From contig OZ024929.1 in NCBI GenBank assembly GCA_964017235.1, forward strand, positions 22,317,464 to 22,381,463: a DNA stretch of 64,000 nucleotides. Direction: 5' to 3'. This DNA is from Sabellastarte sp. h YS-2021. Lineage: Eukaryota > Annelida > Polychaeta > Sabellida > Sabellidae. Below, in pieces: positions 5,412 through 34,759 of the stretch. The position numbers and the translations under genes are program-made. The first letter of the stretch is position 1, and each line of letters opens with the position of its first letter. A model generated the notes under the pieces. It was not told the DNA's origin. It saw only the letters and a program-made list of their open reading frames with translations, and ran no database searches.

Positions 5412-5588
5412 ATGACAAGTAAAAGTAAATCCAGTTTCCTTGACATTAGTGCGGACGATTTAAATGGATTTATTGATAAAAACTTACAACCAGATGAAGG
5501 TTTTCTCAGGGACTGTTGCAAAAATATGGACTTTCTTGCTGATTATTTGAAAACCCACAGTGGATGTTCTGTCGCAGAGACAATAAAG
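5412..5588 (+). CDS. OAS: OAS-A exon 1
   Basis: Encodes residues 1-59, ending ...SVAETIK, followed by the donor gtatgt. Phase 0. It holds the N-terminal helices (FLDIS..DLNGFIDKNLQPD) that precede the catalytic GGS motif in OAS proteins. A 'catatatatatta' stretch lies only about 20 bases upstream of the ATG, too close for an ordinary TATA box, so an upstream non-coding exon is possible. Confidence 0.85.
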
Positions 5589-8500
5589 GTATGTCATTTA
5601 TACAGAATTGAAAGTAACATCATTATTCAGTATTTCAATAACTGCTCCTTTACAGACACACAAAAGCCTTTTATAGAAATGTATTGAAAATTTGAAATAT
5701 TCAGTCGGTAACATATATTAAAATAAAAGTACAGAAAGTGAATTGTGTACAGGGTTTCTGAGAATTATATTAGATACCAATATCAGTAACATTCTGACAT
5801 ACTGTAGTAATTTAACCAAACAATATTCAATACATCAAAATCACACCTCAACATCATTCCACTAGCAAATTTTCTGACAAATTAAAATTTCCATACTAAT
5901 CCTGCAACAATCTTTCACTGTTCTTAACCTACTCATCTATGGTTTGCTGTATAGACAGGTCAGTACATAGGAAAGGTAGGTTCACCTTTTTCAAATTTTA
6001 TTTTTTGGTCTTTCTTTTGGACATGCATTGCAGTTTCTGGTTCTGTCTCTACTTTCTGCTGGTTGCTCAGGCAAGCAATACCACCACTGACAACCCTTCC
6101 AAATTACCAATTTCTGTTACCTCAAGTTTGTATTCCTCTTTCCCTGCCTTTTCCACCATACAGTTGGAGTCTGGCACTCACTCACGTCTCAACAGGGTCA
6201 ACTTTGTCTTCTTGGCAACACAGGGACCTACTTGAAGGGTAACACACTCCTACAAACATGTCAGCCCATGGGTGTTCCTGTTGTTGATCCTCTCAGGGGA
6301 TGTCAGTATTTAATCCTGGCCCTAACACTCACCTTTTAACTGGAAGTCTTATAAACATCAGATCCATCAGAAACAAGTCGGTTACCTTTATGGACTTCAT
6401 AAATAGCAACAAGTCCTATATCATAGCGCTCACTGAGACCTGATTATTTCAATACCCTGCACCACATTCTAGACAAGCATGCTCCAATCAAAAGGAAAGT
6501 GGCACAATTGCACCCTAACAAAGGTTTTGTAAATTCAGACATCCTCTCAGCAAAGTGTCTTAAGCAGAAGTATGAGCAAGTATGGTGCAGTGACCATTCT
6601 GCGATCAACCGGAGTAGGTATCAAGCTACTGTCAATTGCTATAATTTTCTACTGGAACAGTCAAGACATAGGCACTATTCTACAGTTATTGCTGAAAATA
6701 ATGGTAACCCCATAGACTTTTAAAAAATCTTACATAAATCCTCAACCATCATCTTATCTGATCACATTAGTCCTACTAATTTTGCCAACATCCTTGACAT
6801 CCTCAAATTCTGAGATTCTTCCCCTACCAAATCATGTGATCTGGACCCGATACCTACTTCATTAGTTAAAATTTACTCACTCAAAGAAGGAAGCTTCACA
6901 AACTGCTTCAAAGCCGCATATGTCACCCCCTTATCAAGAAATGTAACCTAAACACACTCTGGAAACACATTTACCAGCCACATAACCAAATTTTGTTGTG
7001 CCTGTTACTATCACCTCAAGGACCTAAGTCGCATCTGCAAATTCCTTAGTGTGGAGACCGCAGCTTTGTTTGCAAACTCAATGATCAGCAGTCGACTTGA
7101 CTACTGTAACTCCCTACTCTATGACGTAAATAAATATAATGCGGCTAAACTCCAAAATATTCAAAATGCCCTTTGCAGAATTGTTTTTAGACTTGATCGA
7201 ACTAGCCATGTCACTCCTTTTCTTCAAAAATGTTTACTGGCTCCCTATTACATACAGCGTCTTGTTTAAATATAATCTAATTACTTTCAAGTCCATCAAA
7301 TTCTCCCAACCCACATACTTATCATCCTTGATCAAAAACAGTAGCCTAACTCGTGGGAATCGGCTATCTCTTTCCTCGGTTTGTCCTAGAAAGGCCATTG
7401 CCATTCCCCCACTGAATGGAACAAACTCCCACAATCAGTCCAATCACAGCACACAATAGCAGGTTTCCGAAGATAGCTAAAAACCTATTTCTTTCAACTA
7501 GCATATCCTCCACCATAGTACATCTCCCTGGTAGGCACTAATTTGGATCTCAACCTGATACATCCCTGGGCTTTCCCTTTTTGATCTTGAGCAAATTAGA
7601 AGATGTTGTATCAATTTTGCGCTATATAAATGTTTCTATTCTATTCTAAATAAGTGGGTATCAATGGGCCAAAAACAAAAGCATTCTGAATCCTGTTTTG
7701 AATTGTTAGTGGCCAGGTTGTGACCTTAGTTTCAAGCTTGGTATTTAATTACTGGGCTCTCAGCTCTATTGTTATAGGTTAAAGTTCAACTAAATACAAC
7801 AATTGAGATTCACTTAGGACTAAAAAATGATTGCCCTCATGATGATGGGACATCAAACCTCAACTTTGATCTATCCATGTGTCCAATAGTCACTGGAAGG
7901 TGTTGGCTTTATCAAATAGTATTTGGCCCAGGCAAAACTAATAACTATTTTGAAGCACTGCAGAAGTTAGATAGGATTTGTTTGTGTATTTGTATTGCTA
8001 CAAAGCATTTGGCCTGTTCCTTACCAGCAGGCCAGCCGGGACCATGAGAATAACTGTGCAGTATTTGGTAGTACAGCCTTTGGAAAAGTGTATGAATACC
8101 AAGATTTGCCCACTAGCCATTTGATGCATCTTTTGCAAGGAATAAATTGTCTTGATTTAGGACATCTGAATTTTCTTAATTGTATCTTGAGGCAATTCTG
8201 TTGATATGGGGAATATGCCTCTGTTAACATCAGTCATGTGTATTCCAGTCATCGTAACATCCACAACCCAGTTGCAAGTAAGATATTGGGTTCTTGGTAA
8301 CAACTTGCCGGAGTTGCAACTTAACTCAAGCATGTATGAATTTTATTTGAATATGATTAAGTTTATACCTTTCATATTTAACTAAGAAAGCATGGTTCTT
8401 AATCTCTTGGTGTACCTGGTCCAGATACATTGGGGCTTATTCGCTGCATATTTTCAGTTTGTACTAATGAAAACCAGTGCACCATTGTTTAAACGGGAAG

Positions 8501-11500
8501 AATTATGCTGTTATTCAAAAATGATTATCATCATTTGCAGGGTGGGTCACTGGGAAAAGGTACTGCATTGAAAGGCAGATCAGACCTGGATGTAGTTATG
8601 TACTTAGCTGGTGAATTTAAGACTATGCAGGACTACGTAAACAACATACACACTGTCATAGGCAAATTAGAGAGAGCCATCAAGGCATGGTCACAACAGA
8701 GAAGGGGCCGTGGAAGGGTTGAAGTGGAGGGAACCACAAGCCATGCTGTCAAAATTAAGCTGAGATACGGCAAAGAGGATGGCACTGATTTTGTGGATGT
8801 GGATTTACTGCCGGCTTATAATTTGCTAAAAGAAGGTAAGCTCTGTAGCATAGATATTTTTGTTTATGAACAGATTTTTTGAGAGAGATTTAGCGTACAA
8901 CAATACCAAGACAATGTTACTTTTTGATGACAAGATACGTACAGTATTAAACACATGTTGTGATGTACAGAAGTATAGCTGTACAGATTAATTTTAAAAA
9001 CTTTTGTAAAGCTAGCCCAGATTACTGTCAATAAGGTTTTAGAGATATCTTAGGAATTAGTATTAAAGGGAAGCCAGTCATCTATATCTTGTACCCTGAT
9101 GCTAGCGCTGTTGGTTTGAAGATACAAGAAAAAATAACAAAAACAAAATGTGTGGTGTATTTAGTAACGAATCGAAACAAGTAATCATTCCAACAAAAAT
9201 TGATTTGTATAGAAAAGCAATTTATAGTTTTCATGTATGTTATGCTTTTCATGCTTGCAGCAAATTGTAAATTATGTAATATTGACAATATGACTACAGA
9301 AATGGCATTGTTACAATGTACTTTTGTTGGTCCTTATTTCAATTATGCAAGTCCTCATGGTATATATTTTTCACTTATATCAATACCTTCCCTCTTGGTG
9401 ATGCATATTTGCCAAACTCTTTACAATCTAATCTAAGTGAACTATAAAAGAAAAGCTGATAATGAGAGAATCATCAGATAAAAAGAGATTATAATAAACA
9501 AAGTGGTTGTTTTCATGTTTTAAAAAATGTCACTCATGTGATGTTCTTGAAAACCCGACATATGCTTGAAGAAGAAGCACCAAGAACATTTGGCAAATGC
9601 ATATTTCCTGTGACAAAATAACCTGACTGATGCTTCTGTTTTTTTTGCTCACCTCAAATGTTCTTTTGACGTTTTCACTTCTTAAAGTCAGTAAGGTCTC
9701 CGCATTACATGAAATACCTGCATACAGACATATACAAAATACACCAATCCTATTCATGCATGGATGATATTATTTTTTCCAGGTAAAGATACAACTTATC
9801 AACGAATGCAGAGTCTCACTTCAAAAGAAAAACAGTTATTTTCTGGAACTCTTGTGCCACTTCAATTGGATTTTGTCACCAAACAGCCTTCAAATCTCAA
9901 GAATCTGATCTGTTTGGTAAATTACTGGAGAAAGACTATGTTTCAGGTACATATACAATTGCTTATATGGGTCAAACATATTTATTTTTATTGATAGAAA
10001 TTTGTTTCTGTGTCTGTCAATGTTGATTAGTTTTTTTTCTGTCAATTTAATAACAAAGCATAGTAATGTTGTGGGTAATACACATTCCTCAGACCACTGA
10101 GGTCTTGGGTTTGAATTCTAGCACTGATATCCCCAAGGCCCTTAACTGACCATCTTTAGATAACTTATATAATGTTTCATAATGTTTGATACACAGACAC
10201 ACAAAAATTATTTTTAAATAGCTGAAATTTGTTTCAGTCTACATGCATTACCGGCAACACAATCAGAAACACGAGCAGTGCACTAGAGTAGTGCACCATT
10301 TATGAAAGTTTGGAGACAAAAACCAAGACTGAAAAGTGTTTCTGTCTTCTTGCGTGAGCTGCAAAGGAACCAGAGACACGAGTAGGGCACTAGAATATAT
10401 GAACGCCTGGCGAGAAAAACAAATTCCTAGTTAGATACATCGTATACCTGACCTAGCACTCAGACTGTCACCCATCCTAACATAGCCCATATTTTACACT
10501 GTGTATATCCTGATAAGATTAGATGTTTTGATTGGCTATATTTGTCACTTTATTTACATATGTGTTATGTTTTGACACATAGGAAAGGTCAGAGGGTGTT
10601 TTGTTGCCCACATCTTATGTGTTTGAGCTGTTGACCATATATGGCTGGGAACAGGCTGGCAGGTATTGTCACATTGAAATGGTAAAAAAATAGTGCCATA
10701 TTTTTGTGATAAGGCAATTGTGATATATAGGCCTACATTAAAACCATTTAAAATAATTCATGGAAACTTTCTGTCTCTTTATATATCACGAGTAAGTAAA
10801 TAAATTAATTTAAGCCTGTTTAGATATGAAGTTGACTTTTGCATCACATAATGTCCCAAGTAACTTTCATTTTTGTACAACTTGTGAAAACGTATATTTT
10901 ACAGTATGTACAATATTATATAGGGACCAGAGTCTTAATACATCAGTAAGCTATGTATTGTATTGAAACTATATTTTGACTAATATTTCTAACTCAATAT
11001 ATGCTCACATTAATTTTTGATTGTCACTACATTGGAAGTACATTTATTAAAATTTAGGCCTTCTCGGTTTGACACAGCCAAAGGATTCATGGCGATTTTG
11101 AAAATACTGAAGGATTTTCAACACATTGATGTGTCTTGGGAGGTGAATTACAGTAGACAACAGTATCAAGCCACAGCCACAAAGAAACCTTTTCAGTATG
11201 TTGTGTGCTTCTATTGTATTCAAAAATTCAATGTTAAAATAAACAAAGAGATACACTACTCTATTATATATTTTAATTTCTAAGTTGAATTACCTAATAT
11301 TGTGCTATAAATATTCCATACTTTCGATGTTGAAGAAAGTATACTGGATCAGTTATGTTGTCCATTTATAGTCAGTCCATGCTGTTATGTTACTTGTCCT
11401 GGACATGAATTGGGAACATCAGTAGTTCTTCCACGAAGGTGCCTGAATGTTTCAGTGAAGAATTTTGACCAACTAGTATGACCTTATTTCAGCTGTCCAC

Positions 11501-12655
11501 TCAATTACCTTATGCGATATCTAATCTGTTGAAGCAGTATTATGTTAAGTGACGTTAAACCCAAATGAATCAATCAGAATTCTGTGTTTTTATTTTTCTG
11601 GTACAATCAATTACCCTGTTTGTACATAATTGTCTCTTCACCTCATGTAATCATAACTGATTATAGTTTAAATCAAATTAAACTTCAGCCTCTGAAATCT
11701 TATAATTGTATGGCCCAGATGCTGCTGGCCTTTGCAATTGTATTTACCAAAGGTGACGTATAAGTGTTAAGGCTTTTGTTTTAATATTGAGGATGGGTCA
11801 GTAAAGAAAGGTTAACTTGTTTTTAATCTCAGTGGTTGTCAGTTCAAATCCACCTGATTACAACATATGGGATTAACTAATGGCTTGCCGTGATGTGATC
11901 TTAACTGGATAAATTGATGTAAAATCCCCAGATTTGATGGTTGTCTTACTATTAAATGATGATATTGTCAATGTTCTGAATATAAGGTAAAAATCGTTTA
12001 TTGCCTATTCACACAGTTCAATGTGGTTATACCTGCCTGTTTTTTAAAAGTTTGCTTCACCATATACTTATGATACAGTAAATATACCTTGTATCTTGGT
12101 AGTTCTCGTTAACAAATGAGCTGTCCATATAGCCATCCAGTTACTGCCCCCACACCATCACCATTCTTGCATCTAGAGTTTAATACAGAGGATGTGTGAG
12201 AGGATGTGGCTAGTTTTTTCAAGCATTTTTAAAAATCCAATATGTGCTTGAAAGGCCGTCTATGTTGTGGCGAACGAGTCCTACCTAAATTAAAATCCAG
12301 ACCTATATACACCTAGGGAACTGATCCAATTCTGCCAAAATATGAACTGCATCGAGCCACTACGATCCCAATCAAGTTAAAATTTAATGATTGTGTGTAA
12401 CTTAGGAGGTCACCACAGAACTGTATGAACTGTGTGTTATAGAGGAAACCCCAAGGAGCGACCATAGCTGCTATGTTATCTTGTTTCAGACCATTCATTC
12501 TGGATCCTGCTAATCCTTTTAACAATGTGTGCGCCATGTTTAGTGGTTGGCCAGAAGTGTCCCAGGTTGCTCATCAAAGTCTCCAGAGTCCTCTGCTGAA
12601 GGGCATCCACATAACAAGAAGAGGCAAGACCCGCCATGGATATAGCTGGACTTAA
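5412..12655 (+). CDS. OAS: 2'-5'-oligoadenylate synthase-like protein, copy A (six exons, complete)
   Basis: The CDS joins 5412-5588, 8541-8835, 9783-9946, 10583-10662, 11058-11195 and 12490-12655, giving 339 residues. All introns are GT-AG and the phases agree throughout. The N-terminal helix is followed at residues 60-67 by the nucleotidyltransferase motif GGSLGKGT. Asp74 and Asp76 (S-D-L-D) follow, and a third Asp, D147, lies in V-D-V-D-L-L-P; together they form the expected metal-binding triad. The OAS1 C-terminal helical domain follows, with LVNYWRKT, TSYVFELLTIYGWE and FILDPANPFNN. In this family such enzymes make 2'-5'-linked oligoadenylate from ATP, in vertebrates after binding dsRNA; activity here is inferred. 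Length is close to vertebrate OAS1. The ATG is chosen because the paralogue starts at the same place, 59 codons before the splice site. A cGAS identity is unlikely because the match runs through the OAS1 C-terminal region. Confidence 0.9.
5950..7650 (+). mobile_element. Degenerate APE-type LINE relic in OAS-A intron 1
   Basis: The order is LINE-like but broken by stops, frameshifts and deletions. A decayed 2A-like LSGDVSI... motif lies at about 6280-6325. The endonuclease start NIRSIRNK...ALTET is at about 6355-6440. The EN-RT linker (DKHAPIKRK...YEQVW) lies at 6470-6720, and the C-terminal RT segment AALFANSMISSRLDYCNSLLY at 7051-7270. The 3' end 'gcgctatataaatgtttctattctattcta' region matches that of the LINE at 53.68 kb, so both belong to one family. 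Most of the RT core is deleted. Confidence 0.8.
8541..8835 (+). CDS. OAS: OAS-A exon 2 (catalytic motif and Asp triad)
   Basis: The acceptor 'tttgcag' precedes GGT GGG TCA (GGSLGKGT). The donor is gtaagc, phase 1. The exon carries all three catalytic aspartates (D74, D76, D147). Its 295 nt equal the matching exon of OAS-B exactly. Confidence 0.9.
9783..9946 (+). CDS. OAS: OAS-A exon 3
   Basis: The acceptor is 'tttttccag' and the donor gtacat; 164 nt, ending in phase 0. The exon encodes the segment ending LKNLICLVNYWRKTMFQ, matching the conserved LIRLVKHW region of OAS proteins. Confidence 0.87.
10240..10505 (-). repeat. 5S rRNA-derived SINE, copy 2
   Basis: Shares 'agagacacgagtagggcactagaat'-like body sequence and a shorter 5S-derived head (CACCCATCCTAACATAGCCC) with the copy at 1.45-1.71 kb. 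It lies in OAS-A intron 3. Confidence 0.5.
10583..10662 (+). CDS. OAS: OAS-A exon 4
   Basis: A short 80-nt exon encoding ...PTSYVFELLTIYGWEQAGR, equivalent to the ALELLTVYAWE segment of vertebrate OAS1. The acceptor at 'cacatag' is inferred from phase and from the OAS-B equivalent, which is three codons shorter at its 5' end. The donor is gtattg. Confidence 0.78.
11058..11195 (+). CDS. OAS: OAS-A exon 5
   Basis: The acceptor is 'aaatttag' and the donor gtatgt; 138 nt, identical in length to OAS-B exon 5. It encodes RPSRFDTAKGFMAILKIL..., the F-(N/D)-TA-x-G-F element of the OAS1 C-terminal domain. Confidence 0.85.
12490..12655 (+). CDS. OAS: OAS-A exon 6 (terminal, stop TAA)
   Basis: The acceptor is 'cttgtttcag'. 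The exon encodes PFILDPANPFNNVC...GWPEVSQVA..., corresponding to the VILDPADP segment and following Trp of vertebrate OAS1, then a basic tail and TAA at 12653-12655. The tail is 7 codons longer than in OAS-B. No canonical AATAAA is visible in the first few hundred bases downstream. Confidence 0.85.
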
Positions 12656-15371: not shown

Positions 15372-15402
<31 letters not shown>

Positions 15403-15490
15403 ACACAGTGGAGAAAACCCACACATGTGTCAATGATTGTAATAACAACCATTGTGATATCACAGTTTACAGGAAAAACACAAGTACCTA
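12656..15490. other. OAS-A/OAS-B intergenic region: no gene recognised
   Basis: Plain AT-rich DNA with only short open frames. No exon-like family motif is seen on either strand. It ends with the poly-C/AC tract at 15.37 kb and the OAS-B promoter region. Confidence 0.5.
15365..15408 (+). repeat. Poly-C tract followed by (AC)n microsatellite
   Basis: About 25 C residues run directly into about nine AC units, roughly 245 bases upstream of the OAS-B start codon. A 15-C tract also occurs at 1322-1337. Confidence 0.9.
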
Positions 15491-15501
15491 CAGATGGGCA
15501 C

Positions 15502-15549
15502 AGTTTCGATATAAGTTTAGTTTCGCTTATGTTCTTACAGCATATAAAA
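15502..15549 (+). promoter_or_regulatory. Candidate OAS-B promoter: two AGTTTCG half-sites and a TATA box
   Basis: TATAAAA at 15543-15549 lies about 105 bases before the ATG. Two AGTTTCG boxes, at 15502-15508 and 15519-15525, sit 18-41 bases upstream of it. AGTTTC (GAAACT on the other strand) is the half-site bound by IRF proteins in interferon-stimulated response elements. The spacing does not match a full ISRE. A further GTGAAAGT lies at about 15556. The role is inferred from position only. Confidence 0.45.
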
Positions 15550-15652
15550 TTTTCAGTGAAAGTTACTTACTCATATACAGTTAAGGCTGACTAACACAGC
15601 TCTGCTGTCCAATATCAAATTTGTTCATACAAGATTTTTACCAGAATTCAAA

Positions 15653-15829
15653 ATGGCTTACAGTATGCAGTCCAGCTTTCTAGACATTAATCCAGGAGAT
15701 TTAAATAAGTTTATTGATGACAAGTTGCAACCGGATCAAGGATTCCTATCAGAATGTTCCAAAAACATGGACTTTCTGGCAGAATTTTTGAGAAACAAGA
15801 GTGATTTTTCAGTTGCGGAAACAATAAAG
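15653..15829 (+). CDS. OAS: OAS-B exon 1
   Basis: Encodes residues 1-59 (FLDINPGDLNKFIDDKLQPD...SVAETIK) and ends at donor gtaggt in phase 0. The ATG (context AAAATGG) lies about 100 bases after a TATA box. Confidence 0.87.
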
Positions 15830-18800
15830 GTAGGTATATTTTCTTTTGTGTTGTGGGCAACACTCTTGCCTTTCCTCACTGAGGATGAGCCATGCTGGTG
15901 GTTTGGTAACATACTCACCTCCCCCCACTGAGATCAGAGTTCGAATCCTGGCCAGACCTTATGTGGGAAATCTGTTAGTTGCTTGCCATCGGTTAGCGGT
16001 TAGCAACACAGAACCTTGACCAACTGTGCATTCTGGTTTCCTCCACCCTTCTAACTACACATCACAGTATAACTGGTACAAAGGTATTAGGCATGACGTA
16101 AGTACTAAATAAAATATACTTTTGAGTTTGTTGTCTGTGGAAAGGGGTCCGGAATTGATTTCAGCCTTTGGATAATTACTGTGGGTGGTTAAGCTTCGCA
16201 GCTGGACAGAAAAAAAAGACAGTGAAATATGTTTTGGTATGCTTGGAAGAGGTATGATTTAATATTAGTGCTTTTATATTTATTTAGTTTGTCTAGTACT
16301 TTGGCATGCTTTTAAATTAATTTAATAAATTTAAATTTGTCCTGAATGGAAAATGTTCATGAATTTAAAGCTTTAAACCTTTTTATTATCGCTCATGGAA
16401 ATATGTTTTTCCTGTTTAATTAATTAACAAATTAAATATAAGTTATTTAAATATTTAAAACTATCATGGAATTTCCTGGTTCACAGTTGTTTCAAGACAC
16501 AGTGGTTGAATACAGACTAGGACATCGTAGGTGACACCAGTCCCTTTTTGTTTAACTGGACTAATACTTTGTCCAATGTCAATTCAATTGTCTACTCTGG
16601 TTTATTTATTTATTTGCATCGCTTTTAACACTGTACAGATTGATATCACGACGGGTAGTTTTATGGGCAGAGGAAACCAGTAAATACAGTTCACCAGGCT
16701 TTTGTACTGTAAACTGCCGACTAATGAACCCCGGCCTCAGAGGTGGAAGGCGAGACTGTGACCACTCTGCCACCGTGGCCCCCTTGCCTACCCTGGTCTG
16801 GAGTAGGAATGTTGTTAGTTGCTTGCCAAGGTGGTTTAAAATGTAGAATTATGATGGACAACTGTCCATAGTGATTTTTGTTTTCGTAAAATTACTATTC
16901 ACGGCATGACCTGTTTGATATTGTGAAAGTGGCATTAATCTCAATATAAATATATGAAATGGTATATCTGATTTACTAATATTTATGTGAAATCATGGAG
17001 TATTTATTTTAACACATAAGTATAATAAACTCTGAATACAAGAACTTGATATTTTCCTCTGAAAATTTAATTTAAAAGTGATATACCCAAAATGATTTTT
17101 TTTCTAAAAACTTTACATTTGAAAGTGCATTTAAAGATAATAGAAAGAAAATTTTTATTTTTATTTTAATTAATGAAGTGGATATCTTTTCACTAAAATA
17201 TGCATCTACACGTACACAAATGCAACGTGTAAATGCTCTATAACCAGACAAATAATGACATTATATCCACTTCTCTCCATTCTTGGGAATACACAGGTGT
17301 TGCAGATGACATCCAATTGTAGATTATCATTGTGTATTCTGTTAAGTGTCAATCTGATGATTGTGCAAAGTTGTTGCGAAGATCAGTAGCTTCAAAATGT
17401 CCGAGTTCCTTTTTATCAAAAAAGGCTTTCCTTGTAATCTTTTAACATCTGATAGTTCAAATGTCAAGCACTATCAAAGATTGCTTACATTCAAATGGAT
17501 TATTATTGATCAGTATGGTGAATCTTTGGTGATAACCCCATGTTTTTTGCAAACGAACCGCGCATTGAGACATAACCTTAGGTGGCTGATATTAATATTG
17601 ACCAGAAATTACTACTTTCTTGTCAATGGTTTCACCCAGGTACATTTAAGCTAACATGTTTTTACTTCCAGGGAGGATCACTTGGAAAAGGTACAGCCAT
17701 TAAGGGTAAAGCCGACCTTGATGTAGTCATGTATGTATCAAACCGGTTTCATGACATGCAAAGTTTCTTGCGTGGCATTGGTCCAGCCATTAATGATCTC
17801 AAGAGGGAGATCAAAAGATGGTCTGATCAGAGGTCTGGAGTTGGAAGGGTAAATTTGGGGGACACGACAAGACACGCAGTGAAGATGAGCATACAATACA
17901 GTCGACTGGATGGAACAGAAGAAATTGATGTGGATCTACTGCCAGCAATCAACATACTGGCACAAGGTAAGACAAGAAGCTAATTACTACATCACTGTGG
18001 CCTGGTGGGTAACACACTCACCTAGGAACACAGAGGATGTGGGTTCAATCCCATGTACAGGCAGATACATAGTGGCTCGGATGACCACTTAAAATGGCAG
18101 TCCTCTGTCATTGGGTCCTATCCTCAGTGGCAGGTTAAAGAACCTCAAGGACGTTGATAATTGGTCATCCTTCAGCCTCTGTTTTTTAGTTAGGGGAATG
18201 TCAGTAATTGAGAGTTGGACTGTACTTGTACAGTCGAATGGCTCACATAGCACTTTGAGTCCTGTAGTACATGGAGATATTGCTCTGAGTATAAAAATAC
18301 AAAACCACTCTACTTCATGTGGGGGTGTGGAGAGCTCTATACTTTCCAGTCAATAATGTTACTGGTTTTTATCATAGGAAAACTTACCTAATGACACATA
18401 CAGAATAGATATATCACAAATGAAGATAACAATTTTTATAAATTACATAGTTTCTGAGGTATTAATGAACAACAGGAAGTTATTAACCATGGTACGGAGG
18501 CACCATTGTCCCGCTCCGTATATCCCCCAATACTGGCCAAATATCTCTTAAGATGGATAATAAATAATAATAAAAAATATATATCCTGCTCTGTATATCC
18601 CTCTTTATTTTCCAAATACGACATGAAAAATATAAATCAATTTAAAAATCAAATTAAAACCATAGATCTTTTTGTATACAGCGCCCTGTTTTGAAATACA
18701 CATTGTTCCTGTAAGAAACATCTAAATTCAATTGTTATGAGACAATAAACGATGTCCAAAATACAGAGTTTGCAGAAAAAACATCATTGCTGTTAATCTC

Positions 18801-21800
18801 TAAGTATAGCATACTATTAAGCCTCACTACATAATATAAATATGCACAAGCAACGATGCTCTATATACTTTTCACAGGCAAAAATACAGCATACCAAAGA
18901 TTGGACAATCTGTGCCCTGGAGAAAGAGAATATTTTTCTTCCTCCTTAGTTTCTCTGCAGTTGGAGTTTGTCAGGAAACAGCTCCCAAATGTGAAAAACC
19001 TGATCCGTCTGGTGAAACACTGGAGGAAAACAAATTTTGAGGTAAGTCAACACCTACCCAAACTTTCATAGTTGATTTGGCCAGTTACTCTCACAATGTA
19101 AACAAGAGCACTCAGACAGCACTCCGGATCACTCCCAAAAGTCTAATCAATTCTGCCTTTACCATTTTATAACATATCCTGAAAATGTCATCGAAATCCC
19201 TCAATAGGTTTTTGAGCTATCTTTCTTTAAATATTAAATTTCATGGAACCAGAAGATCATGACAGTGATCCGAATCACTCCCAAAATCTAATCAGTACTT
19301 CCTTTTACCATTTTTGACATATCCTAAAAATTTCATCGAAATACATCCATAAGTGTTTGAGTTATGTTGTTCACAAACAAACAGATGGAAAGACACATTC
19401 CCCCACCCCAAGATCAAAATAATACACTAGCTCCTGCAAAATAGAAGCAAGCGTAAAACACACTAAGCCTGACCCACAAGTCAGTTGTGAATGACCTAGA
19501 GGTTAAAGGTGGACAAGGTCAAATGAGAGGTCATATAATTGACCAGAAAGGTGAAAGCAATTGGGAAACAATACCTTGTGGGTTGATACGACCAATAAGT
19601 GAATTACTGGCTATTCTTCCAAGCCCCACTAAGAGGGGCTATAACCTGACCTCACAAAGGTCATCCTATCCCAATAGTAGGGCCACGAGGTCACAAGCCA
19701 CGAGGTCAAATGCAAGTGAAACATTTGCTTCATAAAGTAAGAGTAAAAGTGACACCCAATACCTTAGAATCATGCTTCCAGCAGGTGGAGACAGAGGTTA
19801 TCCTTGCCATCCTCGACAAGAGGTGGAACATGAGACCTCACAAAGGTCACAGAGAGGTCACCGTTCCCTGTTGACACCCCTAAGATCCCAGATGCTAAGC
19901 ACTAGAGCCACTGGACACAAGCCCAGGGCGAGATAACTGGAATCCAGCTGAACCCCGACAAGGGGTAGATCAGAGATTAAGCTTTAGCCAAGGTCACTGC
20001 AAAGGTCAAGCTTACTGCGAAACCCATAGTAGCTGGATTGGAAAAGGTAAGAAAGCCCATGATTGGGTTTTTACATTTATTAATAATATAATATTTTATT
20101 AATGACATACACTAATACACTAAAAGCTTTTTGTAGAATCATGATAAACTGATAAATACAATAAATATAATATTTAAATGTCATTAAGGAGTACCATATA
20201 AACTGGAATAATGCGCTCCTACAGTATAGCCATAGGATTTGGAAATTTATGAACTTTGTAAGCTTGTGTACAAATTATCACATAAGCCAAAACCACACAA
20301 GCAAAATACCCAATTTAAGATATAAGCCAAACACTAAATGATATAATAAAGTTAAAAATTTAGAAAAATTTTGAAAAACCACCCAAACACCCATCAAGGA
20401 AGAAGGTGTTGGTGGAAAGCGTGAAGAAGAGGAGATGAATGAGATTGTGTTGAAATATAACGCCATACACAATCAGAGGCCCAAGTGCCTTATTGTTTAA
20501 TGGCATCAATGGGAACCCCATGCTGATAAGCCCAGGAGGCACGAGACCTCCTGAAGGAGTAGAAAGTAAAGTTAAAGTGTTGCCAATGCAGGATACGGAT
20601 GATCCTTTTAAAATGTTTCCAAACCATGCTATCTGTCAAAGGAACAAGTGAATTTTGCTTTGAAATGGTAAACAAAGGATCATTCTGAGTACTAGGTACA
20701 GCTTGTAGGAGCACCTTAAGTGCAGCAACAGGGCATAATGAAGAGCCAGAAAGTACAGGAATTGAAATTCTGGTTACTTTGTGCCTGAATTGGTTGGTTT
20801 TTGACCATTTGACCACAATAATTGCCAAATCCTGGCCAAAAATGATGTCATCACGAGCCAGGTGCCTTGAAAGGTCAAATGTTGAAGTAGAATGAGTGAC
20901 AATATTAGATAATCTCAAAAATGAGAAAAAGGCTAAAAGGTAGATGGCAGAAAACACTAAAGGATATTGGAGGTTCTAACACGCCAGAATAACCTGGTGC
21001 AACATATATTCATCAAGGACAGAGTGAGACTTGAGGGTCAAAGGTCGGTTTAATTTTAAGGACCCGATGAACATCTGGATCTTCTGATGTTTAAAACAAT
21101 CTGTAGGAAGGTCATATATGATGGATAGGGCTCTAATTGCAGCTAGGTAATTCGCAATATTAGAAACAGTACAATTATTATTGGTATTCTAAGAATGCCA
21201 ATAAGATGTGAACATCTACCTGAGCAGGACGCAGCCCAGAGACCACCAGAAAGGCCATATAGTCCGAAAACATTCGGGAGTATGTCCTCTGAGTGGAGGG
21301 TCTGAAAGCTTGAAACAATCGGTCAAACGCCTGGGTGGTCAGCTGGGCTGCTCCTGCTGGTAAGGCTGAAAAACTAAATGTTATGATTTAAACAAGTCAA
21401 ATCCATATGAGTGGGGATCCAGATCGGATCCGGAACATGAGTTTTTAGCAAATTCCAGGAGGTTTTGTCAAATTTAAATCTAGATAGTAGATCTGCAATG
21501 ACATTACATTTACCAGGTATGTGTTCAATATGAATAGAAATATTGAATAAGGCAGTCAACATCCAAATATTTCTGGCACAGGTCGCCAACATGATGTCCT
21601 TGGTTTTACCAGATAGCAAAACTTCAACTACCGCCATGTTATCACACTTTATACGTACCTTTTTGTTAGCCCATTGGTTAGCCCAAATTTTAAGGGCCAC
21701 TACAATGTTTAGCATTTCTAAGTGGACGATTGAATAATCATTAAAACCTCTTGGAATAGGGAAAGCATAACATTGGTTATGAAAAATACATCTTGGACCA

Positions 21801-24800
21801 GTTAAAGAGGCATCCAGATGAAGCTCAGCTTGGACAGGTCTGGTGTCATAATATACTATGTCATTAAACTGGTCCAAAAAATTTGTAAACCAGGCAAGAT
21901 CTTGAAAAAATGCCTGTGATAATTTACTGACCTCCTATCCCCCATTTCTATTAAAAGCGAAAAGCCCTAGCAGGCTTAACACATTTGGAGATATAAAGGA
22001 GGGAACCCAATAGTGACTGTAGCTGTTGCTTAGTACATGTTATTTTATTTTTCCACTATGCACAATATGCTGCAATTTTTCAGAGGGGACAGACATGGTC
22101 CTAGTTTCTGTATCAATTAGAATACCTAAACATATGATGGACGTGGATGGGGGAACTAATTTTTTGGTACTTATCTGGAGTCCCAGCTCTGCAAGGAGGG
22201 ATGAGAGCATTTCGTAAGCTTGAAAAATTGTGGATGGAGTGCCACAATAGACTAAATCATCCACATAATTGTACAGATCCGGAAATCCATGATTTTTCAT
22301 GATAAATCTGATGCTATTGGTCACTTTTTCAAAGAAAATTGAGCCATGTCTGTACCCGAATGTGACCGATTGATCAATGAAATAAGAAGTTTGTTTAAGT
22401 CCAGAAGATCAATGTCCTCAGGGTCGACTTTGAGCTGACGAAAAGCTCGACTTATATCAACATAGATCCAGGTCCCAACTGTATGAGCCTGTCAATAATG
22501 TTATCAACAGAAGGATAGCTCAACAAAAATTTTGTACCCAGATACATATCTTTAGCAATGCCTGAGTTAACAGATTGACCTTTTGGCCAGCTAAGGTCAA
22601 CAATAGTTCGCCTCAAATCAGAATCTGCTTTCTCCCTTGTCATAAATGGGGAGACATGTAACTGGAAAGGTTTTTGATCAAAAGGACCTAGCATAGCCCC
22701 ATGTGACAATTCTTCTTTGATGTATTCATCAACATGGTCCGAAAATTTACTAGCCAATGCATGGTTAATTTCTGAAGAAACCAGATCCGAAGTTCTATCA
22801 AAATCAACTGGAAAACCAAATTCCAGCAAATCCACTAACTGTTGATCCCAATAATTTTTAAGATGAGATCTCCATGCAGGTATATCGAGATTTGAATGAA
22901 TGGGAATTTGCAAACCCATAAAATTGGGACAGCCAGACGCACGAACAAGGCGGTGGACTAGCAATGGATCAGTTAATTTTTGATTATTTGTTCGAGCCCC
23001 AGTATAAATTTGTAAAGAAGACAGTGGAATAACTCCAAAAGGTTTGTCCATTTGTGATTTACATCTTACATAATCATCACATGATTTGGTCTGAACAATG
23101 GCATCTTGATCGACCTTCTTTTTGAGTAAAATTTTGTCAAAAATATCCAAATTTCCAGTATCTAATAATGCTTTGCCAGAACAGGGAGAAGTACACTGAA
23201 AATCCCTATCTGAAAATTCGGATTGAGAATCAATATCTGTGATCAACTTGTGATCATCGTCAGACTGTAAAATGGCAAATTTATTACACAGGGATATGTC
23301 ATTATGAACAATATCAGTGGCTAAGTTTATATCCTGAGTATTTTTCCTACGTATCTCAGGACAAGTGACTCGAACCTGGGGACTAGCAGTGCAGAGTATA
23401 TTCTCCCCCTTGACTGACCCAGGTGGCATGTCCTTCGGCTTGAGCATCTGACTCGCCTCCAGAGGCACAGATTTTTTGGCACTAGTATTGCATGAGTAAG
23501 CATTTTGCTTAACTACATCAGCAAAAGTCCTACCAGGTATCACAAGTTTACAAGTAGTGATATCTCTCAACCACTGTTTCCACAATGAAATTGGAGCTTT
23601 ATAAGCTTTTTCTGGGTTCAAGAGATCAATCTTACTGTTATATACATATCTACTAGGATGAATGTTTTTATTTACAACATTTAAAAGAACTTCCCGAGCA
23701 TAGCCAGGTTGTAACGTAACTTCATTGACCGTGCTCAGGGTTATTCATTTTTTTTATTTTTGTTTACAGTCAAGAGCACTATGTGTACTAATCTTACCAT
23801 CCTGGGCAAACCAAGAACTACAGATATGCCTGTAAAAGAGTCCTTTTGTTTCATGGTGCTTTGAATAATTATAAGAATTGTCATTAAAGAACACACATGG
23901 CATGGATTTCTGAGATTTTTGGCCTGTAGCATTTTTCTTGAATTTTTGACTACTATGACCTGCCTGGGATGGAGGAAGATGTTTCTGAGCATTAGCTCTG
24001 CGAATCCGATCAATCTTATCTGTCTGTGACCAACTAGTTACCTTGCCTTGCTCCATCCGACACAATAAAACAGCATGGCTGGCCTTGGCTGCCTGCCACG
24101 AGAAGTCATTCAAATCATCGAGAAGTTAGATAAGATAATGTAACATGTGATCTTTCGTTATCTGACATGGTTCCTCTCTCATGATCCGACAAAAACCTGC
24201 CATAAATTGTGTGATATTGAGTTGGTTATAGGTAACCCTGTCTTTCGTGGTACCAGCGAGAACATATTCATGTGGCCATTTAATTTTTTCTTTCACTAAA
24301 ATATCAACAGAACCACCACGTTGAGATTTTATTTTTGGATCCGTACCTTTTTTACCAGAATTCGACAACTGTCTGATACGCTCCTCAACTTGCTCTTGAA
24401 TCAGTTTATTATGTCTAATACTGTGTAAATCGGGTAGTTTTGCATGTATGGTGTCCTCCTGTGAGGAACTAGGGAGACTGGAACTCGCAGTAGTGCTACC
24501 ACACACAGAATCAGAATTTTTTGTTTTAGAACTGGCAACAGAAGCAGAGTTTTCAACTACAGACAACCGCTTACTAATTGCATCTAGCTGAGATAGTATT
24601 CTTTGATTAATCAAAGTCTGATCTGGTTGAACTTCTGATCTCGGATTCGACCTTACCTTGCCCTTGCCACGCATAGCTTTCCTGGAAGTTTTAAAGTCAT
24701 TTAAATGTTTCTGCACAGGGAAAGTATCCTCAGAGTTAGTACTAGGATGAGAAACAATAGTATCAACCAGCGATTCAATATCAGAATCAGTATCCGACCC

Positions 24801-27800
24801 AGAAACTGAACCCGAACGAGAAAATTCATTCAAGAACGTGTGGTCATTTTCAATTTGAAGTTCAACCGGTATCTCAACCTTTTTCCGCAAATTGTAAGGG
24901 TTACTTGCCTGCTTTTGCTTCTTTCTTGCTGCCATACCAATGAGTTAAAAAGTGTGAAGGTAAAGACAAGACAACAAATACTAAAATGAATGTAAAGTTA
25001 AAATAAAAATTCAAAAACAAAATTTTCTTTTTGTAAAATGTAAACTTGTCTTGTCGGCTGCCAGTTCAAATCTGGCCATTATCCCCTTGACCGAAGCAAG
25101 GACAAAACACTAGCCAATCAGAAAAGGCCATGTGTCATTTAAACGACCCACTAAATGACAGGGGTGATACAAAAATAGGGGTGAAGGAATGATTAGGGTT
25201 GGCACCTAAATGCCAACCCGCAAAACTCAGGCGAAAACATAACCTCCTTGGTTGAGGTAATTAAACAATGGCTGTTACGGGTGATGTCAAGAAAATGGAA
25301 TGAAGGCCAAATATACCACTACTATCATCACAGTAAAAGACATGTGCTGCTGTGGATTTGTGAAATATTCTTTAAAATTTTATCATTGAAAAAGATCTAA
25401 ATAAAATATATTATGCACTTAAGTCTATATTTTACAGGAAGTATTCAGCATTTGAAAAAAATTATAAAAAAATTATATTGCAGAAATAGTTTGGTCCGAT
25501 AATATGTCAGAGTTGTCTCTAACTATGATTTTGCTTGATATTTCATCGTGTTGTATTTTCACTAGGGATCAGCTGGAATTCCAACATCTTATGTGTTTGA
25601 ACTACTGACAATACATGCTTGGGAAAAAGCTGGGAAGTATGTTTGTTATTATTCTTACATTTAATCTTCCATGTAAAAATAAAAGCCTTTAGCTGGTTAC
25701 TATCGATTAAATAACTTATAGTGACATGTTATTCCTACTTACAGCTGTAGTTGAGATTTAGTAAATTTATTCAATATAAGTTTTGCACCAGTGAGAACAT
25801 TTTTGTTCAAGTGGTTGGTAAACTTGTCATAAAGTGAATTCAGTCAAGTGTATGTAAAAGGTCTGTTATTCACAAAGGTTGACTTAGCTAAGTCCAAGAT
25901 GATCAAATAACCTGTGTCATGTGACCTTTCTTTTCCATTCAAACTATACTATTGGTGACATATATCCTTCATTTAATGCATTTTATCTAAGGAAAAGTGC
26001 TGTTTTGAAATGGAAAATCTTGTTACCACATGTAAATTTCCCAAAGACTGCTTTAGTGAGGTATTCTGTATAATCGTACTTTATTTACAGCCATTTCAAA
26101 TTTTGAAGTGGAGAAAAGTTTATGGTGGCCATATTTAAGTGCTCTTTACAAAAATTAAGCCCACTTCCAACCAGTCTTAAAGCTAAACCCTTACTTAAGC
26201 CTAAGACTGGTCTTAACATCTTTGTGAATACTGCTAAGACAAAGCAAATTGTCTTAGCAAGTTTTCTGCGAAAGTTAAGACAAAAGTCTCAATTTTAAGC
26301 TTAAGCCCTGGCTTAAGACCTTTCGTGCATACGGGCCCTGTAAAATAACCTTATACATTACACATTTGCTTACATAATTAGTGAAATGTGAATAAAAAAT
26401 TGGCCAATGACAAGTTTGCAACTCTAATTTGACTCTCTAGTGACTCTGGGGAATACCAAAAATGTTGACCACTCTGAAAGTCAAATTTTTTAGGTAAAAT
26501 AGAGTGCTCAGTGAATAGTAAAAATAAATATTTAATCTAATCAGAATTGTCATGCATTTTTAGACCTCGTCACTTCAACACAGCCAAGGCATTCAAGTCT
26601 ATATTGACCATGCTGCAAGATTATGGTAGTATTGAAGCTTTCTGGACAGATAACTACAACAAAGGGAGCTATAGCAATGCTGCTAGAAAGGCGTTTGGGA
26701 AGTGAGTACATCTCCACAATGGCTAATTTAATTGTACAATTAGCATGTTAATTATTCTACTGTATCATCTTTATCTGTAGTATATTTACATATTTATTAT
26801 TATTATTATCCAGATTTTGCGATCTGACACCACTTCCTCTACCAGTAAAGGTATTATTTTTGCCTTCCTTCAAATAGTGGGGCAAACATCAGTCTCATTG
26901 CTTATTGTTCTATTCAACAGTTTGGTCACAAAAGGAAGTAAGGAGCCAATGTTTGTTTGCAAGAGCTAGGTAGCACTGGATCTAGATAGCGTTGGAATCA
27001 TTTATACAAATTTCTGGATCTTAAATTCAATAGCTGGAGTCAACAGCTAAAGTTCCTGTGTTTCTTCAGAAGGGAATATTTGTATTTATAATCACTGATT
27101 TTCACAAATTTCTCCAAGAAGAAGTTATTGAAGTAGTTTGCCATGATCCTCTTCTGATAGATTTGACTTATTTTGTATCTCCCAGTATAATTTATTTGTT
27201 TATTTATTATTCCAGTATAACTGTTGATGTTTCAAAGATGTTTCTGTTGAGAAAAATTTTGTCTTGCATTCACGGATAAATTTATTTGCAATATCAAAAG
27301 GTGCTCCAATTTGTTTTATAATCTTGAGACTTCTCAGACTTCTTCCATTTTCCTCTAGCTTTCTCTTCAACATCTTTTGACTGCAAATTCTAGCATTAGA
27401 TCAGGATGTATTTGGTCTGGCATTTATCACACTTTCTTTAACTGGTGCATGCTTCTCAGACATTTCAGACAGTTTTATTTTGTTATGTTTTGCCATTTCT
27501 TTTGGTGAATCACTTTCAGGCTGAAGTTGTGCAGTTGTGATCTTATGATCATATGTTATTATTATCACTTTCCTTTGTGTTTCTAATTTTCAAAAAAATA
27601 TAATATAAAGATGACAAAATTGTAATAATGTATATATATATATTAAACATGAAATAAGTGTTTCAGTCTTGTGATAAATAATTAATGTGATATGCTGTTT
27701 TGTTTTCATATTATACTTATATTTGAACTTTTCTTCTGAACAATATTTCTAGTATATATTTGCTACTCCACTTTGCTTGGTTGCTGACATCTTAAAAATG

Positions 27801-28890
27801 TTAACATCTTCAGAATGTATCATTGGAATTAGTTTTACAGAAACTCATGCCACACATTTTTTCGGTAGGGCAGTTGGATTTATTTATTTGGGGTCTTACA
27901 TCACTTTCAACACTATACAGGTGATATTACGACGTGTAGTTGGGAGGGCAGAGGAAACCAGTACAAACAGTTGGTCAAGGTTCTGTACTGTAAAATGCCA
28001 ACCAACGGCAAGCAACTACCAGCTTTCTCACTTGAGGTCGGGCCGGGAACTGAACCCCGATCTCAGAGGTGGGAGGCGAGAGTGTATTTCCACTCTGCCA
28101 CTGGGGCCCCTGGTAGGGCACTTTGAAGACATCTGTTGGCACTAATTCAGTCTTTGACCTTGAACATTCTTCTGTCTGGTAACGCATCATAAGTGACCTA
28201 CTTACCTAGGTAAGGTAAGAGAAAACTAAGTTATTTATTCCTCTATTTACAGAAATAATTCTTACAATATATATGTGTTAATATACAGTACTCCCATAAA
28301 TTAATTTTCATTATTTCGTGGTTATTATGTGACAAACATATTTTATTTTCACTTAAAAGCAAAGGTTCCCGGATTTGCCGGACAGAAGAATGTGTAACCA
28401 ATCTAATCAGTCCTTTTTAACCACTGTGTTTTGTTGAATCCTAAGATTCTACTGCCAAGTGTTTTCTGATTTATTTTATATTTTTGTATACCAGGAACAC
28501 TGATGTTTTTGAGCTAGTTACAGTGTTCTGTAACGTTTGTTTTAGGCAAACGTGAATTGTAAAGTGTCATCCAAACCAATCCAATATGGAAGACAGTCCA
28601 TAAGTGAAATAGTGAACGTTTTAGTCAAACCTTGTATCACTTACAACAATAGATGTGGCACTGAAAACAGAATACCATAAATAAATCTGCCAGTCATTAA
28701 TAATCAATTATTGTTGTTAGTTTTTCTTGCTTTGTGTGTTTACAGGCCATACATTCTGGACCCTGCAAATCCATTCAACAACGTGTGCATACGCTTCAAT
28801 GGATGGGACAAAGTGGCCCAGGTAGCAAGACGCAGTCTGGAGCGTCCATTATTTAGAGGAGTCACAGGCCACCCTCACAACTGGATTTAA
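15653..28890 (+). CDS. OAS: 2'-5'-oligoadenylate synthase-like protein, copy B (six exons, complete)
   Basis: The CDS joins 15653-15829, 17672-17966, 18878-19041, 25566-25636, 26564-26701 and 28746-28890, giving 329 residues. Every boundary falls at the same phase as in OAS-A. GGSLGKGT is at residues 60-67, Asp74 and Asp76 in A-D-L-D, and Asp147 in I-D-V-D-L-L-P, so the catalytic triad is intact. Later conserved segments are LIRLVKHWRKT, TSYVFELLTIHAWE, HFNTAKAF and YILDPANPFNN. It lies about 3 kb downstream of OAS-A in the same orientation, so it arose by tandem duplication. The two proteins differ at many positions, so the duplication is not recent. Intron 3 is 6.5 kb because a DIRS-type retroelement sits in it in antisense. 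2'-5'-oligoadenylate synthesis is the expected activity; whether it responds to dsRNA is unknown. Confidence 0.9.
15893..16117 (+). repeat. tRNA-derived SINE family 1 (OAS-B intron 1)
   Basis: Head with TTTGGTAACA and B box AGTTCGAATCC. The body is 'gttgcttgcc...acagaaccttgaccaactg..ctggtttcctcc', with a tail 'gacgtaagtactaaataaaa'. The same body occurs at several other places in the window. Confidence 0.65.
16601..16795 (-). repeat. tRNA-derived SINE family 1 (internal deletion)
   Basis: Reverse copy: 'ccacggtggcagagtgg' head and 'tactggtttcctctgcc' body, ending at a (TTTA)n tail on the plus strand. The 'agctggtagttgcttgcc' part of the body is missing. Confidence 0.6.
17672..17966 (+). CDS. 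OAS: OAS-B exon 2 (catalytic motif and Asp triad)
   Basis: The acceptor 'acttccag' precedes GGA GGA TCA (GGSLGKGT); the donor is gtaaga; 295 nt. It contains D74, D76 and D147. Confidence 0.9.
17996..18305 (+). repeat. tRNA-derived SINE family 2, copy 1 (OAS-B intron 2)
   Basis: The head has 'ggtgggtaacacactcacctagg' and B box GGGTTCAATCCCA. The body is 'gatgaccacttaaaatgg...gggtcctatc...actttgagtcctgtagtacatgga'. About 300 bp, also present at 38.2 and 50.4 kb. Confidence 0.65.
18878..19041 (+). CDS. OAS: OAS-B exon 3
   Basis: The acceptor is 'ttttcacag' and the donor gtaagt; 164 nt. It encodes ...VKNLIRLVKHWRKTNFE, which keeps the vertebrate-like LIRLVKHW exactly. Confidence 0.9.
19100..19440 (-). 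repeat. Dispersed 'tgtttgtttgtg' repeat with an internal tandem duplication
   Basis: Two successive copies of 'gatc.gaatcactcccaaaa.tctaatca...catatcctgaaaatttcatcgaaat', then 'gttcacaaacaaacagatgg'. It lies at the edge of the DIRS-1 insertion. Confidence 0.5.
19492..20008. repeat. Cluster of AGGTCA half-sites in the DIRS-1 non-coding end
   Basis: At least nine AGGTCA and two TGACCT hexamers occur within 517 bases, for example at 19492, 19516, 19528, 19647, 19658, 19991 and 20003. AGGTCA is the nuclear-receptor half-site core. Some are within a few bases of each other, but spacing is irregular. Confidence 0.5.
20430..21340 (-). pseudogene. DIRS-1 tyrosine recombinase (stops, altered H-x-x-R box)
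   Basis: The N-terminal core-binding part (21340-20960) is frame-broken. The catalytic part 20957-20490 reads LLAFFSFLRLSNIV (Arg box) and FYSFRRSRASWAYQHGVPIDAIKQ. A TAA follows, then GTWASDCVWRYI with the candidate nucleophile Tyr. The usual His of H-x-x-R is Tyr here. The second element keeps HAFRRSGAT at this place. Confidence 0.75.
21374..21877 (-). pseudogene. DIRS-1 RNase H domain
   Basis: AELHLDASLTGPRCIF, HLEMLNIVVALKIWA, IKCDNMAVVEVL and HIEHIPGKCNVIADLLSRF give the Asp/Glu/Asp/Asp-type RNase H layout of DIRS and Ngaro elements. The domain itself is open, but its flanks are frame-broken. Confidence 0.75.
22040..23621 (-). pseudogene. DIRS-1 reverse transcriptase (broken)
   Basis: The N-terminal part is 23621-22452 (MTREKADSDLRRTIVDLSWPKG...LGPGSM). 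After a frameshift comes YVDISRAFRQLKVDPEDIDLL, then a deletion. The catalytic box YVDDLVY follows in another frame at about 22260, with the thumb region to 22040. At least two frame breaks prevent a full polymerase. Confidence 0.75.
23754..24935 (-). pseudogene. DIRS-1 gag-like protein
   Basis: Starts MAARKKQKQ and reads to a stop at about 24126. It continues in the same frame (24113-23754) through FSWQAAKASHAVLLCRMEQG...DRIRRANAQKH, so a single in-frame stop breaks it. The same blocks occur in the second element (FTWSSTKAAHAVLLCEMERG...DRIRRAHAQKH). The putative zinc-binding segment near the C-terminus has Tyr where the second element has its second Cys. Confidence 0.7.
25196..25219. repeat. 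Perfect 9-bp hairpin near the DIRS-1 5' end
   Basis: GGGTTGGCA, a 6-base loop, then TGCCAACCC. It lies about 260 bases upstream of the gag-like ATG on the minus strand, so it is in the element's leader or terminal repeat. Confidence 0.6.
25566..25636 (+). CDS. OAS: OAS-B exon 4
   Basis: The acceptor is 'ttcactag' and the donor gtatgt; 71 nt. It encodes GSAGIPTSYVFELLTIHAWEKAGK. It is the first exon after the DIRS insertion. Confidence 0.85.
25866..26340. mobile_element. MITE-like element, family M, copy 1 (OAS-B intron 4)
   Basis: About 475 bp, ending 'aagacctttcgtgcatacgggccctg'. Its core ('gacctttcttttcc', 'gccatttcaaattttgaagtgg') is nearly identical to the copy at 37.6-38.1 kb. The left terminus has lost the CAGGGC end. 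Confidence 0.6.
26564..26701 (+). CDS. OAS: OAS-B exon 5
   Basis: The acceptor is 'catttttag' and the donor gtgagt; 138 nt. It encodes PRHFNTAKAFKSILTML..., matching the HFNTAQGF element of vertebrate OAS1. Confidence 0.88.
27876..28112 (-). repeat. tRNA-derived SINE family 1 (full-length, OAS-B intron 5)
   Basis: The minus strand reads GGCAGAGTGG head, GGTTCAGTTCCCGG B box, 'agctggtagttgcttgcc' body, and ends 'ccaaataaataaa'. With the 49.55-kb copy it is the best-preserved member. Confidence 0.7.
28746..28890 (+). CDS. OAS: OAS-B exon 6 (terminal, stop TAA)
   Basis: The acceptor is 'tgtttacag'. The exon encodes PYILDPANPFNNVCIRFNGWDKVAQ..., ending HNWI and TAA at 28888-28890. Confidence 0.88.
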
Positions 28891-29123: not shown

Positions 29124-29889
29124 ATTTTTTTGATTACTGGAAAGAGTAAACCTAAATTAATTTAAATTAAAATAACTCTTCTCTTGTTTCTTTAAACTAA
29201 TTGAAATTTGTACATTATTGTGTGAATTTAAAAATAGAGCCAAACTAAATGTAACAGTCCCCTACCCCAGTGAGAGAAAACAAGGCTGTATTAATACGTA
29301 ACAAGTAAATTACATGGTTACATAAATATAAATAAAAGTAAATTAGAGTAAAAGGAGTAAATAAAGACTACTAATCAGAAATGAGCCAATAGATATAAGT
29401 GTCCAGTCCATGCACTAAGTGACAAACAGTCACTAACTTTACAGATAGGTTCCAAGCTGTACAGTAAATTACTGAAACAAGATTACAATAACTTTACAAT
29501 TACAGTATGTAATGTAAAATAACCAATTAAGCTTAAAGTTACAATAAACCCATATTATACAAACACCAGTGACTTTACAATTACCTGGATTACTGAAACA
29601 TAGAATTATGAAACACCAGTTTAAGTTTATACGTAAAGTGACATTTTTGACCCAGAATAAAGTCAGTTTAAGTTTGAGGTCATGAGGACCTCACCCTTAA
29701 ACTAAGATAAAGACAAGCCAATGTTAAGGTCCCCCAAACCCAAATATTTTCATGCGAGATTAAGATTAAGCAAGGACTTAAGTTTTAATGGCAAACTTAT
29801 CATATATACTTATAAAAGAAAGCCCTCAAAGCCCAACAAGTAGGACACATTAGCATAGCAAATGAGCAAATATGGAAGCAATATGTTTA

Positions 29890-30854: not shown

Positions 30855-30896
30855 ATGATGATGTGACCTTATGTAACTGAAAATTGAATGAACACT

Positions 30897-31769: not shown

Positions 31770-31799
31770 ACGTCACGCGACATCTGGGGTGCCGTAACC

Positions 31800-34625: not shown

Positions 34626-34759
34626 ATCTGGGTTTTTTTACCAAACTGACATTTTTCCCTGTGGGAGGTATGTGTTTCTCATGACATGTAGAACAGTAAG
34701 TTTTGTTTTTAGGCTTTGACTTAGTCATATCTTTTTATCTTTCAACCGACTTATACAAG

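Follow-up and report, generated by a model that had tools for sequence, protein, structure and literature searches.

Tandem OAS-family genes in a sabellid annelid, one of which lacks both basic residues of the donor-site helix

Two complete genes of the 2'-5'-oligoadenylate synthase (OAS) family, A and B, lie head to tail on the plus strand of a 64-kb stretch of Sabellastarte DNA (referred to as a whole as the window) and differ in the donor-site helix: the LIRL region reads LIRLVKHW in B versus LICLVNYW in A, where R210 has been replaced by Cys and K213 by Asn (human OAS1 numbering), both basic residues of the LIRLVK helix thereby being gone. Judged from the sequences, a probable reading (roughly 0.6) is that B is a canonical OAS-type polymerase and that A, its donor site altered, is probably weak or inactive and has been retained for RNA binding or regulation. 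The genes themselves, their family, the order of duplication, the substitutions and the rarity of the latter in the sample are direct observations.

Once the exons were joined and the frames rebuilt, either gene was found to comprise six exons, with all introns bounded by GT...AG, intron phases of 0,1,0,2,2, an ATG start, a terminal stop and no internal stop. Gene A (5412-12655) has a frame of 1020 nt and encodes 339 aa, and gene B (15653-28890) has a frame of 990 nt and encodes 329 aa. The chance of such open frames arising from base composition alone is about 1e-10 for A and 3e-10 for B, values in which the freedom of exon choice is left uncounted. The two complete genes of the preliminary description, with exons of 177/295/164/80/138/166 (A) and 177/295/164/71/138/145 nt (B), were rebuilt exactly, and the identical phases and head-to-tail order that it had reported were also reproduced; since a tandem duplicate inherits its exon plan, the identity of the plan in both genes is to be expected. 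The features of the pair are the following:

5412..5588, plus strand: gene A exon 1, 177 nt, phase 0 out
8541..8835, plus strand: gene A exon 2, 295 nt
8541-8564, 8583-8585, 8589-8591 and 8802-8804, plus strand: sites in gene A exon 2, respectively the P-loop GGSLGKGT, D74, D76 and D147
9783..9946, plus strand: gene A exon 3, 164 nt, with the altered LIRL motif LICLVNYW
9911..9922, plus strand: altered donor-helix residues of gene A, Cys201 (TGT, 9911-9913, R210 position) and Asn204 (AAT, 9920-9922, K213 position)
10583..10662, plus strand: gene A exon 4, 80 nt
11058..11195, plus strand: gene A exon 5, 138 nt
12490..12655, plus strand: gene A exon 6, 166 nt including the stop
15653..15829, plus strand: gene B exon 1, 177 nt
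17672..17966, plus strand: gene B exon 2, 295 nt
17672-17695, 17714-17716, 17720-17722 and 17933-17935, plus strand: sites in gene B exon 2, respectively the P-loop, D74, D76 and D147
18878..19041, plus strand: gene B exon 3, 164 nt, with intact LIRLVKHW, R201 (CGT, 19006-19008) and K204 (AAA, 19015-19017)
25566..25636, plus strand: gene B exon 4, 71 nt
26564..26701, plus strand: gene B exon 5, 138 nt
28746..28890, plus strand: gene B exon 6, 145 nt including the stop

When both proteins were compared with the 64-kb window by tblastn (E <= 10), the twelve exons were recovered, the only other matches being three with E values no better than 2.1; neither a third OAS copy nor an alternative exon 3 was seen. 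Searches for Rfam families at gathering thresholds gave no match, and no tRNAs were found. Residue 209 of horse OAS1 has been placed in exon 3 (PMC2048516), as it is in A and B. Two-unit OAS proteins occur in Haliotis, with second units from about residue 371-376 of P0102 and P0104-P0107, and A and B could accordingly be imagined as the halves of a single OAS2-like gene that is read through. Gene A, however, closes on its own stop and B opens on its own start after a gap of 3.0 kb, and an AG lying 8 bases 5' of the B ATG is out of frame with exon 5 of A, which ends in phase 2; with such a stop codon and phase, this arrangement does not fit and is very improbable. The AG in question (15643-15644, in the stretch 15634-15652), which was noticed by eye, is acceptor-like and pyrimidine-rich, and might point to a 5' exon that is non-coding.

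Both proteins were assigned to the OAS family by full-length Pfam scans, in which OAS1_C (PF10421, curated cut-off 19.9 bits) was the best match, with 118.3 bits (E=3.8e-34) for A and 116.0 bits (E=2.0e-33) for B. A score above this cut-off has been used as the marker of the OAS superfamily in PMC10732462, and A and B both belong to the superfamily on this basis. Further matches were found to NTP_transf_2 (28.2 bits, above the cut-off of 21) and SMODS (20.3 bits, below the cut-off of 26.5) in A, and to SMODS (27.6 bits) and NTP_transf_2 (21.3 bits), each just over the cut-off, in B; no other nucleotidyltransferase family gave a better match, in keeping with the family named in the preliminary description. 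Each of the two proteins has eight distinct matching sequences in the PDB at E <= 0.001, from OAS2, OAS1, OAS3, OASL and, last, CdnC. The OAS1_C domain ends at residue 322 of 339 in A and at residue 323 of 329 in B.

With regard to the canonical five-motif set of OAS, taken from PMC6071104, both proteins possess the P-loop GGSLGKGT and the D-box with its three catalytic Asp (D74, D76 and D147), as well as relaxed forms of YALELLT (YVFELLT in both) and of RPVILDPADP (QPFILDPANP in A, KPYILDPANP in B). The LIRL motif is present in B and missing from A, so that the place of A in the OAS superfamily rests on profile and tree, and it does not count as a canonical OAS with all five motifs. The catalytic set had earlier been described as intact in both copies: this holds for the P-loop and the Asp triad, but not for R210 and K213, which A lacks. 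The loss in the donor helix of gene A had been overlooked in that earlier reading.

A and B are 55% identical (185/338 by BLASTP, 180/329 aligned by MAFFT). The comparison of dN and dS between the copies, which had been suggested at the outset, gave dN 0.36, dS 2.20 and dN/dS 0.16 by NG86, dN 0.33, dS 1.41 and dN/dS 0.23 by LWL85, and dN 0.34, dS 2.32 and dN/dS 0.15 by maximum likelihood, a range of 0.15-0.23 which, with silent sites near saturation, represents a rough average over the whole history of the pair. Per-exon dS, obtained for exons 1-3 only, amounts to 1.7-2.7, so near to saturation that the duplication cannot be dated from it. Outside the exons, no similarity between A and B was detected (blastn, E 1e-3), all five matches being exons.

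In a tree of 48 proteins (A, B and 46 of 101 homologues, hand-picked for taxon spread), A and B are sisters with a support of 100/97, and the closest protein is P0003, 40-41% identical to them (node 91/70). The pair arose by tandem duplication, later than every lineage split sampled. The old duplication that had been proposed is thus borne out as to the strong divergence (55% identity, NG86 dS of about 2.2), but the event is younger than the divergence from any lineage sampled in the tree. The end branches measure 0.47 (A) and 0.42 (B), and relative-rate counts were symmetrical for four out of the five outgroups used; when P0004 served as outgroup, unique changes numbered 31 in A versus 14 in B (chi2 6.4), a point against the preferred reading. 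A shows no general decay, as seen in its open frame, its dN/dS of 0.15-0.23, an end branch similar to that of B and the symmetry of rates with most outgroups.

A deviates in three of the 43 columns with at least 85% conservation, R210 and K213 being two of these, and B likewise in three, one of which is common to A. Two radical substitutions at near-invariant sites might be taken as the sign that A is a pseudogene, either young or dying, in which the donor site is starting to decay, but all six exons and all splice sites are intact, internal stops number zero, and the 55% identity to B has been reached with no break of the frame. Moreover, the branch lengths of A and B are similar, and in the most conserved columns the changes of A consist of the donor helix and one conservative change. 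A pseudogene was consequently thought unlikely, in view of the open frame, the branch length and the localised changes, and little probability is attached to it.

The rarity of the two substitutions was assessed by numbering the positions on human OAS1 chain 4ig8, whose R210 and K213 correspond to pig R209 and K212. In a first count of 101 homologues, Lys was found at K213 in 99 and Arg at R210 in 96. When 145 homologues were split into domains by profile, Lys was present at K213 in 154 of 155 domains and Arg at R210 in 148 of 156, counts that rest on these 145 retrieved proteins since the last protein search contributed the best 120 of 238 matches. Fifteen of the 145 proteins had also been used for building the counting profile, and the rows counted are partly near-identical in the motif windows (e.g. 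P0009, P0021, P0023 and P0025). The lone exception at K213, P0027, has Arg there (LIRGVREK) and belongs to an odd gene model that looks erroneous; apart from A and P0027, this Lys is lost in no protein examined (145 homologues, best 120 of 238 matches). R210 by itself is not decisive, which tells against the preferred reading: Arg is absent from that position in 8 of 156 domains, and in four of these (Q in two, L in one, T in one) the Asp triad is intact. A changed Asp triad was read in 11 domains (that of P0003 being possibly an effect of alignment), and the retention of K213 in all 11 hints at a role of this residue beyond catalysis. The way in which A is altered is unusual.

K213 of OAS1 is presumably the equivalent of cGAS K414. 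This cGAS lysine has been counted among the residues essential for positioning ATP (PMC4897736). As for the arginine, Arg209 of horse OAS1 has been described as the counterpart of human OAS2 Arg544, in the donor-binding domain, and OAS2 R544A and R544Y as significantly lower in activity (PMC2048516, citing Sarkar 2002 for the mutants). In the solved OAS2 chain, the Arg and Lys of LIRLVK are residues 564 and 567, that is, +20 relative to 544 and 547, an offset that would fit a 20-residue tag. The Arg-to-Cys change of A also exists as a natural variant of horse OAS1, Arg209Cys, which was rated benign by PolyPhen along with every other horse OAS1 variant reported there (PMC2048516). No printed account of a loss of K213 was found in the open-licence literature, which cannot show absence.

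The PolyPhen verdict weighs against the preferred reading. So do the Asp triad and P-loop, intact in A as well as in B, with which A may have kept some activity or may act on a different substrate. Together with the good conservation of A elsewhere, these data would suit two active OAS enzymes, the substitutions of A merely shifting kinetics, donor preference or linkage. Such an alternative has to contend with the Lys found at K213 in nearly all domains and with the drop in activity reported for OAS2 R544A/Y, and is considered rather unlikely. The preliminary description had also raised a possible functional split between the copies, and the difference in the donor helix supports this as a possibility.

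The Cys and Asn codons of A are each one base away from those of B (TGT/CGT and AAT/AAA), as might be seen if they came from an error of sequencing or assembly. Such an error would, however, require two separate base changes in a 12-base segment whose surroundings keep the frame and resemble OAS, and the adjacent codons differ silently from B (TTG/CTG and GTA/GTG), from which it follows that the stretch of A is not misplaced B sequence; an artefact of this kind is very improbable. The profiles of bacterial cyclases provide a further comparison: B matches 17 PADLOC cyclase families and A matches 7, the best stretch falling inside residues 190-256, which include the donor helix, in 4/17 cases for B and 0/7 for A, a contrast that is a hint only, since A and B also differ outside the donor helix.

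From these differences we infer that B is active, that A has lost activity and that labour is divided between them. On the preferred reading, B would be switched on, by RNA or constitutively, and would hold the donor ATP via Mg2+ on the Asp triad together with R210 and K213, attack by the acceptor then giving short oligoadenylates. A would have its metal site as in B and an impaired grip on the donor, with synthesis poor or nil, and has probably been kept because it does something else, for example binding nucleic acid, acting as a decoy or regulating B. In a stricter form, which is put forward tentatively, A would be a donor-site-dead OAS with an intact triad, which folds and may bind RNA and metal, cannot load ATP and serves as decoy or partner of B. 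If this were true, A would parallel vertebrate OASL and Oas1b, a similar state having been reached via loss of the donor lysine, not of an aspartate.

As to the activation of both proteins, R195 and K199 are dsRNA contacts of mammalian OAS. Their positions are occupied by L and T in A and by L and R in B, so that either protein may or may not depend on RNA; for sponge OAS, constitutive activity has been reported (PMC6307210). In the acceptor pocket, the positions of pig T187 and T190 are G and V in A and S and V in B, and Thr is found there in 9/156 and 18/156 domains, respectively. A change at both positions has been linked to the 3'-retaining OAS of sponges (PMC6307210), and, both being replaced in A and B, a pure 2'-5' linkage is not to be assumed.

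Animal OAS1-like proteins (PF10421) from Lingula, Branchiostoma, a hemichordate, bivalves and corals resemble A and B in domains and length, and share with them the P-loop, the Asp triad, YxxELLT and ILDPANP, LIRLVK being common to B alone. These named relatives are 27-42% identical to A and B, none of those found being a close one, and A differs from them in having neither R210 nor K213. Human OASL, mouse Oas1b and the N-terminal unit of OAS2 are reported inactive OAS paralogues, and A is likewise a duplicate that has been kept and is perhaps dead for synthesis. In the human OAS2 N-terminal unit, the motif reads LILLIKHW, with Leu for the LIRL Arg, so that the Arg is lost as in A, but the Lys of K213, lost in A, is kept. 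Furthermore, mutations at Asp sites are described for OASL and for the N-terminal unit of OAS2 (PMC6307210), whereas A retains the Asp triad, and OASL carries C-terminal ubiquitin-like domains, no match to which was found by Pfam in A or B. Bacterial CBASS cyclases have a profile in common with the pair (best PADLOC E 1e-18 for A and 9.9e-20 for B), and E. coli CdnC, a clade C CD-NTase, is among the PDB matches of both; A and B differ from them in the OAS1_C domain and in being spliced animal genes, and no genes for CBASS partners came to notice in the window. The PADLOC matches are in line with the origin of OAS from clade C CD-NTases published in PMC10732462.

OAS genes had been characterised beforehand as patchily distributed outside vertebrates. 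This is too strong, as the superfamily has been reported from 8/12 eukaryote supergroups (PMC10732462) and, within Metazoa, has been described as widespread (PMC6307210). In Aplysia, no OAS was identified according to PMC9334734. Eight non-sponge lower Metazoa are listed with OAS present and with RNaseL, IFN, IFNR and STAT1/2 not found (PMC6307210), and in Nematostella RNase L is listed among the homologues detected after poly(I:C) (PMC8476169). Linked copies are also known elsewhere: in the freshwater mussels, the Potamilus OAS P0012/P0088 have consecutive locus tags (026447 and 026448) and the Sinanodonta OAS P0015/P0094 near-consecutive ones (041441 and 041443), probably representing another linked pair, separate from A and B, and nine Patiria OAS proteins appear to come from one contig. 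The mussel pairs were seen to be orthologous pair for pair in the tree. Since many invertebrates have OAS genes, and linked copies of them, the A/B pair as such is ordinary, and since mutations at functionally critical sites have been reported for most new OAS members (PMC6307210), the alteration of one member of a linked pair is the kind of event to be expected. The significance of the pair lies in its difference at the donor site, which offers a natural comparison for the role of OAS in animals described as having neither interferon nor RNase L. If only B makes oligoadenylates and both genes are kept, a non-catalytic role of OAS would predate the vertebrate system or would have arisen repeatedly.

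Concerning the surroundings of the genes, the ISRE-like pattern GAAANNGAAA occurs 6 times in the window versus 5.5 expected, i.e. with no enrichment, one of them lying some 600 bases 5' of B, at 15050. Intron 3 of B (6.5 kb) contains a degenerate antisense retroelement (20490-24944, minus strand) occupying about two thirds of the intron, and a second, related element (29850-34637, minus strand) starts about 1 kb 3' of gene B. The relationship of both was seen at protein level (40-48% over alignments of at least 91 aa, blastp). The second element matches RVT_3 (RNase H-like) and, below the cut-off, a phage-integrase SAM-like family, and the one frame scanned in the intronic element (22452-23741) gave no Pfam match; 'DIRS-like' is used for the two as a working label. 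In intron 1 of A, a fragment derived from a reverse transcriptase (6952-7456) is 72-81% identical to an RVT_1 frame at 51888-53549. Finally, an exon-like frame at 60304-60549 (minus strand) matches the amiloride-sensitive sodium channel family (PF00858, E 1.3e-06) and is probably part of another gene.
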